Assembly: GCF_021631985.1 (NCBI RefSeq)
Contig: NZ_CP070225.1
Span: forward strand, 2,418,001-2,482,000
Direction of reading: 5' to 3'
From: Sandaracinus amylolyticus
Lineage (GTDB): Bacteria > Myxococcota_A > Polyangia > Polyangiales > Sandaracinaceae
Length of the DNA stretch: 64,000 nucleotides
Both the position numbers and the translations under genes were made by a program. The notes beneath the pieces are model-generated. The model had not been told where the DNA came from and ran no database searches. It was given only the letters and a program-made list of their open reading frames with translations. Of this stretch, positions 6,680-12,844 are shown one piece after another (position 1 is the stretch's first letter; each line of letters opens with the position of its first letter).

Positions 6680-8449
6680 TCAGTCGGCCGCGAGGACGTA
6701 GCGCGTTCGCTTGCCGGTTCCGTCGCGGGTGATCGCGCCGGTCGCGACGAGCGCGCGGAGTCGTCGCAGCGCGGTCGCCTCGGAGACGCGGAGGCGCTCG
6801 GCGAGCTCGCTCGAGCGCAGCGGGCGCTCGGCGAGGAGCGCGAGGATCGGGTCGCGCTCCTCGGGCTCGGGCTCCGGCTCGGACGGCGTGCCCGCGATCG
6901 GCGTCTCGGCATCGAGGTGCACCACGCGCACGCCGCTCTGGAGCGCGTAGCCCAACGGGGTCGTGCGGATCCAGTCCGCGAGCGGGCCGAGCGTGCGGCG
7001 CAGCCGCGCGATCGCGGTGTGGATCACCGCGTCGTGGTGCTGCGGCGAGTACCGTGCGACGCGCCACACCTCGTTGATCAGCGCTTCCTTGGTGCGCTCA
7101 CCTGCGCTCAGCGCGGCGAGGAGCTCGCGCGCGTGGCCGGGGAGCTTCGTGATGTGCACCACGGTGCCGTGATCGGCGGCGACCAGCGAGTCGGACGCGA
7201 ACACGAGATCGCGACCGGGCTCGCGCGCGTGCGGGACGAGCAGCGGCACGAGGCCGAGCCAGCCGCGCCGCAGCGCGATCGCGATCCGCGCTGCAGGCGA
7301 CGCGTCACCGGCGAGCAGCGACCAGAGCGGTGACTCGCTCGCCGCCGTGCTGCCGAGCGCGCGCCCGCCGTCCATCGCCTCGAGGGCGCGCGCGACGAAC
7401 CCCTCGGTGAGCCGCGCCAGCGACTCGGAGCGCGCGCGATCGGGCGCGAAGAGCGCGGTGCCGAGCACACGATCCCACGCGATCAGCTCGGCGAGCAGGA
7501 TGCGATCGTGGCCCGACTCGAGCGCGCGCCGTGCGTCGTCGAGCGCGTCGCGTGCCTCGTCGAGCGATCGATCGAGCCGCGCGAGGAGCGCGAGCGTCAT
7601 CGCGAAGCGCGCGCGGCCGCGGTGATCCGACTCCGGGATCGTGTGCTCCGCGGCGCGCTCGAGGGCCTCGCGGCCGCGCTCCGCATCGCCCGAGAGCGCG
7701 CCGCGGAACGCGAGCTCGACCCATGCCGAGCGCAGCGCGTAGACGTTGCCCACGCTCGCGATCGCGACCTGCGTGAGCGCGCTCTCGACGTCGGCTTCGC
7801 GCCGTCCGTGCCGGTTCTCGTAGGCGAGCCGCGCGCACTCGATCGACACGCGATGCCCCTCGAAGCCGAGCGCTGCGGCGAGCTTCTCCGCCTGATCGAG
7901 CACCCGCAGCCCGGCGTTCACCTCGCCGCGCTGCACCAGCACGTGACCGCGCAGATCGAGCGCGAGCAGCCTTCCGTACTGGAAGCGCGCGCGCACCGCC
8001 TCGCGCAGCGCGCGTCGTGATGCGAGGCGCGCGCGCCCGATCCGACCGACGAAGTAGCGGAACAGCGCGATGCCCTGGAAGACGAAGAAGCGCGTCTTGG
8101 GATCGCTCGCGCCGGCGTAGCGGAGGTTGCTGCGGGCGCGGCTCTCGGCGTCGGCGTAGCGACCCGCATGGCAGAGCCCGACGATCGCGAAGAACTGCGC
8201 CTCGGCGACGATCGCATCGGTCGCCTCGGGATCGGCGCGCACGTCGTCGGCGAGCGCGAGCGCCTCGTCGATGCGACCGAGGAGCGCCAGCGACCCGACG
8301 ACGCACGGGGCGTCGTCGGGCTCGAACGTCGCCTCCGGAGCGTCCCACGCGCGCGCGAGCACTTCGTGGTGGAGCCCGGAGCGGAACGTCGCGCGCAAGT
8401 CGCGTCCGACCACGCGCGCAAGAGTCCGCGAGCCTCGCGCGCGACGCAA
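6680..8449 (-). CDS. TPR-like transcriptional regulator with two winged-helix domains
   Basis: A 589-residue protein. Residues 1 to about 390 are alpha-helical and TPR-like (paired helices such as EALALADDVRADPEA). A winged-helix module of OmpR/SARP type follows near residues 430-500 (LINEVWRVARYSPQHHDAVIHTAIARLRRTLG, read in two parts, with the wing GYALQSG). After an acidic EPEPEPEERD linker, a second winged helix of MarR/HTH_20 type closes the protein (SSELAERLRVSEATALRRL, then GKRTRYVL). It begins 11 bp after the stop of the lipoprotein gene at 8461, suggesting one transcript. The start shown is TTG 8449; GTG 8413 is an alternative. Targets are unknown. Confidence 0.8.
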   Translation of the reverse strand: MRRARGSRTLARVVGRDLRATFRSGLHHEVLARAWDAPEATFEPDDAPCVVGSLALLGRIDEALALADDVRADPEATDAIVAEAQFFAIVGLCHAGRYADAESRARSNLRYAGASDPKTRFFVFQGIALFRYFVGRIGRARLASRRALREAVRARFQYGRLLALDLRGHVLVQRGEVNAGLRVLDQAEKLAAALGFEGHRVSIECARLAYENRHGRREADVESALTQVAIASVGNVYALRSAWVELAFRGALSGDAERGREALERAAEHTIPESDHRGRARFAMTLALLARLDRSLDEARDALDDARRALESGHDRILLAELIAWDRVLGTALFAPDRARSESLARLTEGFVARALEAMDGGRALGSTAASESPLWSLLAGDASPAARIAIALRRGWLGLVPLLVPHAREPGRDLVFASDSLVAADHGTVVHITKLPGHARELLAALSAGERTKEALINEVWRVARYSPQHHDAVIHTAIARLRRTLGPLADWIRTTPLGYALQSGVRVVHLDAETPIAGTPSEPEPEPEERDPILALLAERPLRSSELAERLRVSEATALRRLRALVATGAITRDGTGKRTRYVLAAD

Positions 8450-8460
8450 GGCTCGTGTGA

Positions 8461-9090
8461 TCAGTCGTCGTGCTCTTCGTCGTCGTCGTCGCCACCGCTC
8501 GGCTCGAGCGCGGTCGCGAGATCGAACACGACGATGCCGATCGGATCGGACACGAACGCGTCGACCACGGCGCGGCGCGCGAGCGCTTCCTCGGCGCTCG
8601 TCGCACCGGCCTCGACCGCGGCGAGCGCTGCGGCGTAGTCGAGCGGAAGCGCCGTGAAGATCTCGGTGCAGCGCGCCACGCCCGCCGCGTCGACCGTGCA
8701 GGTGCCGGTGCCGACCGCGTCGGTCAGCGTCGTGCCCTCGATCTCGCGCCCCGCGACCGGCCCGACGGGGCCGCGCAGGGTCACGGTCTGATCGACGACG
8801 CCGCTCAGATCCGGCGGAAAATCATAGGTCAGCGTGACCTCGCCAGCGGCGACGACGACGTGCACGTCGGGCACGAAGAAGAACGCGTGCGGTGCGAGCG
8901 CGGGGTCGGTGACCGGCACTTCGTAGTAGGGCAGGGGAAGCGGCGGCGTGATCGTCGCGCCTGCGTCCGACGTCGTCGCGCTCGACGCATCCGGCGTCGC
9001 GCCGGGGCTCTCGGAGCACGCCGCGAGCGCGAGTCCCGTGCTCATCATCCACATCCACTGCTTCGTCCGCCGCACCCGAGCCTCCGACAT
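8461..9090 (-). CDS. Lipoprotein with Asp/Ala-rich linker
   Basis: A 209-residue exported lipoprotein. The signal peptide runs to a LALAAC lipobox and is followed by a linker rich in Asp, Ala and Ser (PDASSATTSDAGATI). The body has a beta-rich look (VHVVVAAGEVTLTYDFP, VTLRGPVGPVAGREI) and contains two cysteines in GTCTVDAAGVARCTE that could pair. The last residues are strongly acidic (GGDDDDEEHDD). ATG 9090 is preferred to an upstream GTG at 9111. The regulator gene follows 11 bp downstream, so the two may form a regulator-and-surface-protein unit. No family was recognised. Confidence 0.7.
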   Translation of the reverse strand: MSEARVRRTKQWMWMMSTGLALAACSESPGATPDASSATTSDAGATITPPLPLPYYEVPVTDPALAPHAFFFVPDVHVVVAAGEVTLTYDFPPDLSGVVDQTVTLRGPVGPVAGREIEGTTLTDAVGTGTCTVDAAGVARCTEIFTALPLDYAAALAAVEAGATSAEEALARRAVVDAFVSDPIGIVVFDLATALEPSGGDDDDEEHDD

Positions 9091-9146
9091 CGTTCTTGCG
9101 TGAAGAGACACCGTTGCGACCCGGCTCGCAACGGTTCAGCGATCGA

Positions 9147-9548
9147 TCAGATCCCGTCGTCGTCGCCGCCGTGCGGCTTGCAGTACGCGGTGCCGTGCTC
9201 GACCTCGCACTCCTGCCCGGACGGGCAGTCCGCGTCCGTCGTGCATGCCTCGCCCGACGGTGCGCCGTCGTCGTCGCCGCCGTGCGCCTTGCAGAACGAC
9301 GTGCCGTGCTCGAGCTCGCACTCCTCGCCGGACGGGCAGTCGGTGTCGACGGCACAGGTCACGCCGGAGCCGCTCGCGTCGCCGTGCGGGCGGCACACCG
9401 GGCCGGCGTCCTCGGGCTCGCAGGCGTGACGCGCCGGACAATCGGCGTGGGTGTCGCACGCGAGCGGCGCGACGGATCCGTCGGGGCCCTCGGGCGCACA
9501 TCCGACGAGCATCACGGCGACGAACAGAGCACGAACGAGCTGGCGCAT
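9147..9548 (-). CDS. Cys-rich lipoprotein with tandem 37-residue repeat
   Basis: A 133-residue lipoprotein with lipobox VMLVGC. The mature part is made of Cys-rich units of the form CxxDADCPSGxECExEHGT, then (F/Y)CKxHGGDDDG; two are nearly identical and a third, more diverged unit precedes them (CDTHADCPARHACEPEDAG). The two similar units lie 111 bp (37 codons) apart in the DNA. The pattern resembles Dickkopf-like Cys-rich modules common on myxobacterial surfaces, with disulfides implied. A strong ribosome site (GGAGG, 5 bases from the ATG) fixes the start at 9548 rather than at 9596. The promoter side faces the 100-bp palindrome at 9615-9714. Confidence 0.8.
   Translation of the reverse strand: MRQLVRALFVAVMLVGCAPEGPDGSVAPLACDTHADCPARHACEPEDAGPVCRPHGDASGSGVTCAVDTDCPSGEECELEHGTSFCKAHGGDDDGAPSGEACTTDADCPSGQECEVEHGTAYCKPHGGDDDGI
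9158..9373 (-). repeat. 111-bp tandem duplication inside the Cys-rich lipoprotein gene
   Basis: Two copies offset by exactly 111 bp; the segment beginning GTGCGGCTTGCAG at 9171 corresponds to GTGCGCCTTGCAG at 9282. Differences between copies are few, suggesting a recent in-frame duplication of one Cys-rich unit. The outer limits are approximate. Confidence 0.7.
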
Positions 9549-9614: not shown

Positions 9615-9714
9615 TGCGCGTCACGCCGCTGACCGGCTCTGACCTGCGCTGACGGGAAAACGCGGCGGGATTCCCGTCAGAACGCGTCAGCGCTCGTCAG
9701 CGGCGTGACGCGCA
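9615..9714. promoter_or_regulatory. 100-bp symmetrical palindrome with six phased CTGAC/GTCAG boxes
   Basis: A dyad centred at 9664.5 lies between the divergent genes starting at 9548 (minus) and about 9773 (plus). The outer 19-bp arms (9615-9633 and 9696-9714) are perfect reverse complements, and the inner 10-bp arms CTGACGGGAA (9649-9658) and TTCCCGTCAG (9671-9680) are also perfect. CTGAC occurs at 9629, 9639 and 9649, and GTCAG ends at 9680, 9690 and 9700, each exactly 10 bp apart. Ten-base phasing puts all sites on one helix face, which suits cooperative protein binding. It may be a shared operator, or a cruciform; no binding protein is identified. Confidence 0.7.
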
Positions 9715-9772
9715 TCCCCACGCACGATGGCTCGGTGCGACGGCCTCGGTTCGGCCGTGCGTGGAGGTGGGA

Positions 9773-11083
9773 TTGGATCAGCGCTCGTCACAGGCTCGTC
9801 GTGCCCTCGGCTTCGTCGCGGCGGCGCTCGCGATCATCGCGTGCGACGGGACCTCGGCCGGGAGCGACATCGTCGACGCGCCCGACGCGGCGATGGCGGT
9901 CGAGGACGCGGCGACGCCCGAAGTCGCGCCCGGTCTCGCGGTGTACCCGGTGCGGCCCGTCGCGATCGTCGACACCCGCGCGCCGATCGCAGCGTGTGGT
10001 GCGCACGTCGCGCTCGACGCGGCCCACCCGCACATCGACGTCTCGCTCGACGCGTGCGCCGATCTCGAGCTTCCGCTCGGCGCCACGGCGCTCGCCGCGA
10101 CGCTCACGATCGTTCCGCGCGAGCTCGGTGCGACCGTCGAGGTGCGCGCGGGCGCGCCGGAGTCGCTCGCTGCGCAGCCGATCACACGCGCGGGCCCGCA
10201 CGACGCGTGGACGAGCGGGTTGCTCGCGTCGCTGGGCGCGGCGCGCACGCTGCGCATCGAGACGACGAACGGTGCCGCGGCCGACGTGGTGCTCGAGCTC
10301 ACCGCGGTGCTCGCGCCGCCGGGGCCCGGCGCGCGCGGCGTGCGCTTCCTCGATCGACCGGTGCGGCTCTACACGACGCGATGGGACGAAGCCGGCGTGT
10401 GGCACGGCCCGACCTCGGCCGACGTCGACGGGCGGCTCGCGCTCAACGAGATCGCCGAAGACCCGCTGGGCGCGCTGCCCAACGACGTGGTCGGTCTGAT
10501 CGGCGTGGCGCACGTCGGGCCCGACGGTCTTTGCGACGAAGGCGCGTTCGTCTCGCTGGGGCCCGCGCGCTCCGAGGGCGACACCGGCGGGCTCGCGCGC
10601 ATCGCGACGTGCGCGCCCGAGTCGACGTTCCCGAGCCGCTCGAGCACCGCGTTCGTGATCGGTGCGAGCCCCTCGCAGCAGCTCGTGCTGCGCGCCGATC
10701 GCGCCGACGCGCTCGTGTACCTCGACGTGGTCGCGTACCTCGTGCCGTACCGCGAGGGCGACGCGCTCTACCATCCGCTCGCGGCGCCGCTCGGCACCGA
10801 GGTCGAGCTCGGCCTCGCGCCGCGCCAGGTCGCGGCGTCGCTCGGTGCCGGCGTCGCGGCGTCGGGGCGCATCGCAGCGTGGGGCGCGGGCCGCGGGAGC
10901 CTCTCGGCGGGCGCTGCGCCGACCAGCGACGCGCCGAGCGGTCCGCACACGACGCTCGAGCTGCGCGACGGCACGAGCTCCGCTGCGTTCACCACGCGCC
11001 TCGATCCGACCGGCGCGTTCGTCCTCGAGGCCGACGTCGAGGCGCAGCTCGCGCTCGCCGTCGACGCGTACTGGGCGCCCTGA
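9773..11083 (+). CDS. Secreted lipoprotein, function unknown
   Basis: A 436-residue exported protein. A basic N-terminus (SSQARRA) precedes a hydrophobic core and a lipobox AIIAC, followed by an Asp/Ala linker (VDAPDAAMAVEDAATPE). The remainder is beta-rich with repeated stretches such as PVRPVAIVDTRAPIA, which resembles segments seen in actinobacterial and myxobacterial cell-surface proteins; no catalytic motif stands out. The start is TTG 9773 because GGAGG sits 5 bases upstream; the longer GTG start at 9761 would lie over that ribosome site. It is followed by a MYXO-CTERM protein gene 27 bp downstream, so the two are probably co-transcribed from the palindrome side. Confidence 0.7.
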   Translation: MDQRSSQARRALGFVAAALAIIACDGTSAGSDIVDAPDAAMAVEDAATPEVAPGLAVYPVRPVAIVDTRAPIAACGAHVALDAAHPHIDVSLDACADLELPLGATALAATLTIVPRELGATVEVRAGAPESLAAQPITRAGPHDAWTSGLLASLGAARTLRIETTNGAAADVVLELTAVLAPPGPGARGVRFLDRPVRLYTTRWDEAGVWHGPTSADVDGRLALNEIAEDPLGALPNDVVGLIGVAHVGPDGLCDEGAFVSLGPARSEGDTGGLARIATCAPESTFPSRSSTAFVIGASPSQQLVLRADRADALVYLDVVAYLVPYREGDALYHPLAAPLGTEVELGLAPRQVAASLGAGVAASGRIAAWGAGRGSLSAGAAPTSDAPSGPHTTLELRDGTSSAAFTTRLDPTGAFVLEADVEAQLALAVDAYWAP

Positions 11084-11110: not shown

Positions 11111-12844
11111 ATGCGACATGCCTTCTCGTTCCTCGTGCTCCTGATGCTCGCGATCCCGACCCGCGCGCTCGCCGCGCCGCCGTGGATCGACAGCTTCGAC
11201 GTCCTCGAGGCCCCTCGCGGCGCGCGCGTGCGCATCGCGGGGAGCGATCTCGGGGACCCTGCGACCTCGCGCGTCGAGATCGGCGGCGCGCTCGCGCCCA
11301 CCGCGCGGTGGACGTCGACCGGGATCACCGCATACGTGCCCGCCGATGCGCGGATCGGAGAGACGTCCGTTCGCGTCGTCACGTCCGAAGGCGCCGACGC
11401 GCGTCTGATCACGATCGTGCCTCGCGCCGCGATCGACGATCGCATCGCGTGGCGCGTGCTCGGCGAGGGCCGCGGCGCGGGGCACCACGCGCCCGGCGTG
11501 CGCCGCGACGGCACCGTGATCGTCGGCGACGACGCGGGCTTCGTGTACGCGATCGATCGCGACGGAGGGATGCGCTGGATCGTCGATGCGGTGCGCACGC
11601 TCGACGTCGAGTGGGCCGCCGCGGATCGCGGCCCGATCGCGATCGGCGACGGCGACGTCGCGTACGTCGCGGTCACGTCGGGCACGCAGGAGCACGTGCT
11701 CGCGATCGATCGCGACGGCGCGATCGCCTGGGCCCGCACCTTCGAGACGGGCTTCCTCAGCGCGGGTCCGAGCATCGGCCCCGACGGCGACGTCTACGTG
11801 ATGCACGCCGCGGCGTGGATCGTCAGCACCGATCCGCCCGGTCCGAGCAGCGGCATGATGCGCCTTCGCCACGACGACGGCGCGACGGTGTGGGCGACGC
11901 GCGGCGAGCCCGTGATCACGCAGGTGCCCTACGAGGGCGCGCCGATCGTGTTCGGCGCGTCGACGCCGGGCGGCGCGATCGATCGTGCGTTCGTCTTCAC
12001 CGAGCAGGGCGCGCTCTCGACCTCGCCCGGCGATCCCCAGCGCGATGCGCTGCGCGCGTTCGCGCTCGACGACGGACGCGAGACCTTCGTCGCGCTCACG
12101 CTCGCACCGACCGGCAGCGCGTCGCCGCTCCAGGTGTGGCCCGCGGTGCGGGACGACGGTGCCGTGCTGGTCTCGAGCTTCGTCTCGTCGTCGGTGGGCC
12201 AGCGCGTGCGCTTCGTCGACGCGTCGAGCGGTGCGTTCGTCGGCATGACCAGCATGGAGGAAGCGGGCGGGCTCGGTGCGCCGCTCGCGGGCCGCGACGG
12301 ACGCACGTTCGTCATCCGCGATCAGTCGTGGCTCGACGCGTTCGACGTGGACGGGCGGCTCGTGTGGGAGCGCCGCATCGCGGGCGGCCCGCGCCCGAAC
12401 CGCCTGGTGTTCGGCGCGGATCGCATGGCGATCTGGGTCGCGTCGCCGGGTCGTGCGATGGCGGTGTCGGCGGAGGACGGCGCGCTGATCGACGACGTGT
12501 CGGTGGCGGCATCGGCCGGTACCGAGACGCCCGTCGGCTGCGCGCTGGGCACCGACGACGTGCTCCGCCGCGTCTACTACGTCGGCTGCTTCGCGGCCGA
12601 AGGCGCGAGCTGGGAGCTCTCCGCGATCACGATGCTCGCCGACGCGCCCATCGATCACGACGCGGGCATCGGCGCCGATGCGGGCGCGCCGATCGAGGCC
12701 GATGCCGGCGCGATGCGCCCGCGCGGAGCGGGCTGCAGCGTGGGCGCGCGCACCGCGCAGGCGCCGTGGGCGCTCCTCGCGATCCTCGGGCTCGTCTTCG
12801 CGCGCCGGGCTCAGCGCCCCGCGAGCCCGAGCACGCGCTTGTAG
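11111..12844 (+). CDS. Secreted beta-propeller protein with MYXO-CTERM sorting signal
   Basis: A 577-residue protein with a cleavable signal peptide (LVLLMLAIPTRALAA), an IPT/TIG-like domain (residues about 23-100: RVRIAGSDLGDP, then ARIGETSVRVVTSEG), and a PQQ/WD40-like propeller with strands such as DGTVIVGDDAGFVYAIDRDG and DGDVYVMHAAAWIV. A linker with repeated ADAG units leads to a C-terminal tripartite sorting region: GCS motif near residue 540, a hydrophobic helix (APWALLAILGLVF) and a basic tail (ARRAQR). That arrangement is the MYXO-CTERM signal known from myxobacterial surface proteins. Its 3' end overlaps rsmI by 34 bp. Confidence 0.85.
   Translation: MRHAFSFLVLLMLAIPTRALAAPPWIDSFDVLEAPRGARVRIAGSDLGDPATSRVEIGGALAPTARWTSTGITAYVPADARIGETSVRVVTSEGADARLITIVPRAAIDDRIAWRVLGEGRGAGHHAPGVRRDGTVIVGDDAGFVYAIDRDGGMRWIVDAVRTLDVEWAAADRGPIAIGDGDVAYVAVTSGTQEHVLAIDRDGAIAWARTFETGFLSAGPSIGPDGDVYVMHAAAWIVSTDPPGPSSGMMRLRHDDGATVWATRGEPVITQVPYEGAPIVFGASTPGGAIDRAFVFTEQGALSTSPGDPQRDALRAFALDDGRETFVALTLAPTGSASPLQVWPAVRDDGAVLVSSFVSSSVGQRVRFVDASSGAFVGMTSMEEAGGLGAPLAGRDGRTFVIRDQSWLDAFDVDGRLVWERRIAGGPRPNRLVFGADRMAIWVASPGRAMAVSAEDGALIDDVSVAASAGTETPVGCALGTDDVLRRVYYVGCFAAEGASWELSAITMLADAPIDHDAGIGADAGAPIEADAGAMRPRGAGCSVGARTAQAPWALLAILGLVFARRAQRPASPSTRL

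Follow-up and report, generated by a model that had tools for sequence, protein, structure and literature searches.

The window analysed here, a 64,000-nt stretch of Sandaracinus amylolyticus DNA, contains a 100-bp inverted repeat within a divergent promoter, where it fills nearly half of the DNA that separates the two start codons (Table 1). The three genes to its left share one strand, have just 35 and 11 nt between them and probably constitute a single operon, which comprises the genes for a Cys-rich lipoprotein, a second lipoprotein without any Pfam or NCBIfam match and a 589-aa regulator. On the right, a lipoprotein-like gene is followed by a gene for a TIG-domain repeat surface protein. 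This lipoprotein-like gene is 84% identical in a second species of the Sandaracinus group (G001) and was not found in the other relatives searched.

Table 1. Coordinates of the genes and of the putative operator elements in the window.
Feature	Position	Strand	Remarks
589-aa regulator gene	6680..8449	-	third gene of leftward operon
Second lipoprotein gene	8461..9111	-	leftward operon; conserved partner of regulator
Cys-rich lipoprotein gene	9147..9548	-	first gene of leftward operon; TIGR04201 Myxo_Cys_RPT repeats; ATG 9548 after GGAGG
Palindromic operator array (putative)	9615..9714	.	inverted repeat; single in genome; kept in second Sandaracinus-group species
Outer left box CGTCAC	9619..9624	+	inverted, in phase; GTCA core 9620
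Left CTGAC boxes	9629..9654	+	boxes 9629, 9639, 9649; TGAC cores 9630, 9640, 9650; 10-bp phase
TGACGGGAATCC (inner right box on minus strand)	9668..9679	-	12-mer exact in G020 and G237 promoters
Right GTCAG boxes	9675..9700	-	boxes 9676, 9686, 9696; 10-bp phase
Outer right box GTGACG	9705..9710	+	inverted, in phase; TGAC core 9706
Lipoprotein-like divergent gene	9761..11083	+	start GTG 9761 or TTG ~9773 after GGAGG
TIG-domain repeat surface protein gene	11111..12844	+	downstream of divergent lipoprotein-like gene

The inverted repeat is composed of two 44-nt arms (9615-9658 and 9671-9714) that are 84% complementary and flank a 12-nt centre. An earlier note on this DNA had described it as a perfectly symmetrical palindrome. 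The symmetry is real, and pairing is indeed perfect in the outer 19 bp (9615-9633/9696-9714) and the inner 10 bp (9649-9658/9671-9680) of the arms, as had been stated, but the description as a whole goes too far, given mismatches at 7 of the 44 arm positions and an unpaired centre. Similarly, the six CTGAC/GTCAG boxes reported at exact 10-bp steps are all present, but the outermost GTCA and TGAC cores had been overlooked, so that the palindrome contains a total of eight TGAC/GTCA cores on a 10-bp ruler, with the outer two inverted. A distance of 46 bp separates the cores of each of three pairs (9630/9676, 9640/9686 and 9650/9696). ATCAGCGCTCGTCAC (9777-9792), which is located close to where the rightward gene starts, repeats the right-arm sequence TCAGCGCTCGTCAG as part of a 27-nt repeat (78%); it is kept in G001 and may represent either a further box pair or a coding coincidence.

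A genome-wide search for CTGAC repeats at 10-bp spacing, as proposed in the earlier note, detected the triple CTGAC-N5-CTGAC-N5-CTGAC at the palindrome alone, making it a single occurrence in 10.96 Mb even with one mismatch allowed, and the palindrome region as a whole matches only itself in its own genome, with no second copy. When the 224-bp intergenic region was shuffled, just 17 of 2000 sequences contained any 5-mer triple at a constant spacing of 9-12 bp, whereas the real sequence contains opposed triples of CTGAC and GTCAG. The earlier assertion that such phasing is rarely seen by chance is thus borne out. The array is also conserved in G001, the one further genome that shows close conservation of the divergent genes. 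Over ~118 bp, it differs from that of the window by four substitutions and one indel, an insertion at the centre; all eight cores are intact, and the flanking non-coding DNA is more diverged than the array itself.

The regulator combines a TPR-like N-terminus with two winged helices, one resembling the PhoB/OmpR type (residues ~441-505) and one the MarR/ArsR/IclR type (~530-587). Its match to Trans_reg_C (PF00486) is weak (E 0.001) and falls below the Pfam cut-off; 8 of 15 family members match this model, the best of them at 3e-5, and a profile search matched PhoB DNA-binding structures at E ~0.006. Single-sequence structure prediction modelled the last winged helix well and the PhoB/OmpR-type domain poorly. 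Receiver domains gave no match in the family, whose N-terminal part is TPR-like instead. The regulator also departs from the SARP layout, in which an N-terminal OmpR-like winged helix precedes a BTAD/TPR region, since its winged helices are C-terminal and no BTAD match was obtained. A literature search on the regulator or the putative operator returned no matching paper.

Relatives of the regulator are found in 19 of 290 Polyangia genomes (E<=1e-10). Nearly all of their loci include a lipoprotein gene alongside and most a Cys-rich gene, which is often divergent from the regulator gene; in G003, the lipoprotein and Cys-rich parts are fused, with the Cys-rich part at the C-terminus. The regulator, lipoprotein and Cys-rich genes form a conserved module, which makes the upstream regions of the relatives comparable with the window. 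Contrary to the view in the earlier note that nothing in the neighbouring genes explains the palindrome, the leftward operon encodes a predicted DNA-binding regulator, and boxes related to those of the window occur in the promoters of its relatives.

The relatives' module promoters contain either TGACGGGAATCC or paired inverted boxes of the form TGACGCGATTA...ATCGCGTCA, for which a spacing of 45-46 bp prevails. The 12-mer TGACGGGAATCC, present in the window array, recurs exactly in the homologous-module promoters of G020 and G237 and with 11 of 12 positions in that of G250, and these three near relatives of the window regulator use TGACGGGAAT(C/G)C. TGACGSGA, a motif picked after inspection of the sequences, is ~80-fold denser in the upstream regions (13 occurrences in 2.16 kb) than in the remaining sequence of these loci (11 in 144.9 kb); an 8-mer count, which represents the unbiased version of this test, placed AATCGCGT, CGCGATTA, TCGCGTCA and TCCCGTCA among the top enriched words. 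The layout of two-box operators was compared for fifteen cases (14 from relatives plus the inner pair of the window array) in a search that allowed a range wider than 45-46 bp. A core-to-core spacing of 45-46 bp was observed in 13 of the 14 relatives' operators, which corresponds to the spacing of the three pairs in the window. Box geometries do vary, with a spacing of 24 bp in the remaining operator (L105) and of 26 bp in the inner window pair. A strict form of the operator, TGACGCGAT-N31-34-TCGCGTCA, was detected at five places in the 290 genomes and at none in the controls. Four of these places fall within modules or next to them (G175 twice, G052 and G287); the fifth (G233), a 3-kb locus without module genes, was taken as a chance match.

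Similar box pairs precede the lipoprotein gene in five genomes (G175, G060, G185, G148 and G093), and the box variants cluster along the regulator tree, albeit with few rows and one long branch. G003, which belongs to the same family as the window genome, carries three copies of CGTGA at exactly 10-bp intervals before its regulator gene. In G279 and G243, the search upstream of the regulator gene gave no TGACGSGA box. A second conserved element, CGAAACTCG/CGTAACTCG, is located between the right operator box and the Cys-rich gene, tens of bp from the box, in the upstream regions of L104, L105, L106, L108, L109, L110, L112 and L116. The word CGAAACTC, likewise near the Cys-rich gene in relatives, is also enriched in the unbiased 8-mer ranking, and these sequences probably represent a promoter element. 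In G287, an operator-like pair (L108, 10067-10116) lies ~1.4 kb past the regulator and before another lipoprotein-like gene, which is a possible extra member of the regulon.

Elsewhere in bacteria, 61 stretches contain CTGAC-N5-CTGAC palindromes. Many are simply hairpins, and being unconnected with the lipoprotein-regulator module, these stretches were dismissed as instances of the same array. In metagenome-assembled genomes of Syntrophomonadaceae (L023, L035, L045, L047 and L065), a palindromic array is present in several copies and looks like a repeated element; its CTGAC and GTCAG boxes, 3-4 of each, follow a 10-bp phase and flank an AT-rich centre. In Bacteroides genomes (L020, L030, L042, L043, L068 and L078), phased CTGACA/TGTCAG palindromes precede a common sequence that resembles AAAATTTGGATG. 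Both Sandaracinus genomes also possess a perfectly conserved TGACGCGAG...CTCGCGTCA hairpin (L151, G000:C1:8097622-8097652; L150 in G001). This second TGACGSGA palindrome of the genome was rejected as a further operator array, because it is hairpin-like and lacks an array.

We propose, with a probability of roughly 0.8, that the palindrome is an autoregulatory operator within a divergently transcribed module, bound cooperatively by the regulator encoded next to it. This proposal is based on the 46-bp pairs, the 10-bp CGTGA triple of G003 and the ability of PhoB/OmpR-type winged helices to read repeats spaced by a helical turn. As in autoregulated divergent promoters, the regulator gene lies in one of the two divergent operons, and a conserved element is situated between them. 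The regulator would dock on the palindrome by means of its PhoB/OmpR-type winged helix, with probable help from the second winged helix and from contacts of the TPR-like N-terminus. The elementary site would be an inverted pair of TGAC(G) boxes, and the half-site in Sandaracinus would comprise three TGAC boxes and one inverted outer TGAC box, arranged in 10-bp steps on one face of the DNA, so that several protomers could dock side by side from both ends. Since the window contains three 46-bp pairs, the array can be read as the two-box operator of the relatives repeated at 10-bp steps, and the operator may thus have grown from a single box on each side to three or four boxes. The predicted outcome is that the Cys-rich-lipoprotein-regulator operon and the divergent lipoprotein operon are both controlled cooperatively, in the manner of a switch. 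The identity of the binder, the stoichiometry, the cooperativity and the sign of control are all inferred from sequence; repression is slightly favoured over activation, because the array covers such a large part of the DNA between the start codons. A broader model, to which we give somewhat less than even odds, envisions a new family of regulators with TPR and double winged-helix architecture that controls a Polyangia surface-lipoprotein module via inverted TGAC operators, with protomers polymerising inward from both ends of the 4+4 array in Sandaracinus to create an ultrasensitive surface-protein switch.

Control by another protein encoded elsewhere, such as a global regulator or an ECF sigma factor or activator acting on the module, appears unlikely. 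Global factors often control both sides of a divergent promoter, and the CGAAACTC element near the relatives' Cys-rich gene suggests a dedicated promoter type. However, the array is unique in its genome and the strict operators of the relatives are almost confined to modules, as expected of a local regulator, and the variation of the boxes tracks the regulator tree. Even less probable is an origin as a mobile palindromic repeat of the MITE or REP kind, or as a chance palindrome, the least credible of the readings considered: the perfect 19-bp terminal inverted repeats would suit a mobile element, but MITE and REP sequences are dispersed in multiple copies, whereas a single copy is present here, no target duplication was seen, the position is the same in the second species and the motif is kept in homologous promoters of other families.

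The earlier note had offered cooperative binding by a multimeric protein and cruciform formation as alternatives, and the comparative evidence favours the former. It is true that the palindrome is predicted to form a very stable single-strand DNA fold (z = -9.1), as might be expected of a DNA cruciform or of an attenuator or terminator formed by an RNA hairpin in a 5' leader. This fold follows from the symmetry, however, and the relatives are devoid of it, retaining just the outer ~10-bp boxes (7-10 of 10 positions match) around unrelated interiors of 25-30 nt in which 2-7 of 14-15 positions pair. The changes between the window and G001 disrupt arm pairing in two instances and add a pair in one; none of them is compensatory, and the TGAC cores are kept. 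Moreover, a hairpin does not need an exact 10-bp phasing of boxes, and searches for an RNA-family identity in Rfam yielded only sub-threshold, microRNA-like hairpin matches. The conservation of boxes without pairing between them thus argues against a cruciform or RNA-hairpin function, which we consider highly improbable. A search for plasmid similarity gave short chance matches alone.

The autoregulatory operator proposed here links a striking palindrome to one particular, uncharacterised family of regulators and to a conserved surface-lipoprotein module of the Polyangia. The palindrome is very probably bound by a control protein encoded right beside it, and simpler versions of the site precede the same genes in distant relatives; it would represent a new regulatory switch that follows familiar principles. 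Its motif and spacing are defined and directly testable in vitro, and the range of natural forms, from a two-box site up to the 4+4 array, provides a clean system for studying how cooperativity depends on the number of boxes and on their helical phasing.

Several features of the module are reminiscent of known systems. TIGR04201 was defined on TraA, the outer-membrane exchange protein of myxobacteria (PMC3325183). Like such Cys-rich surface proteins, the first product of the operon has a Cys repeat and a lipoprotein-type signal; unlike TraA, it is short (133 aa), has no PA14 domain match and gives no sign of a role in outer-membrane exchange. SARP/TPR regulators possess both an OmpR-like winged helix and a TPR-like region and bind phased direct repeats. 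The module regulator joins the same two elements, but it has the TPR-like region first, an extra MarR/ArsR-like winged helix and a putative operator that is inverted. Boxes of the Pho/CpxR type are pentamer or heptamer direct repeats that are read by winged helices positioned side by side. The module regulator has a weakly Trans_reg_C-like domain, and its candidate operator resembles these OmpR/PhoB operators (Pho box, CpxR box) in having direct repeats about one helical turn apart, a spacing of ~10-11 bp that is seen both in the CTGAC triples on each side of the window array and in the CGTGA triple of G003. Most members of the PhoB/OmpR winged-helix subfamily bind direct repeats (PMC3960148), and the CpxR operator consists of the pentamers GTAAA(N)4-8GTAAA (PMC9603713). 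In contrast to these systems, the module regulator carries a second winged helix and has a TPR-like region instead of a receiver domain, and the boxes in the window occur in runs of three to four within an inverted array.
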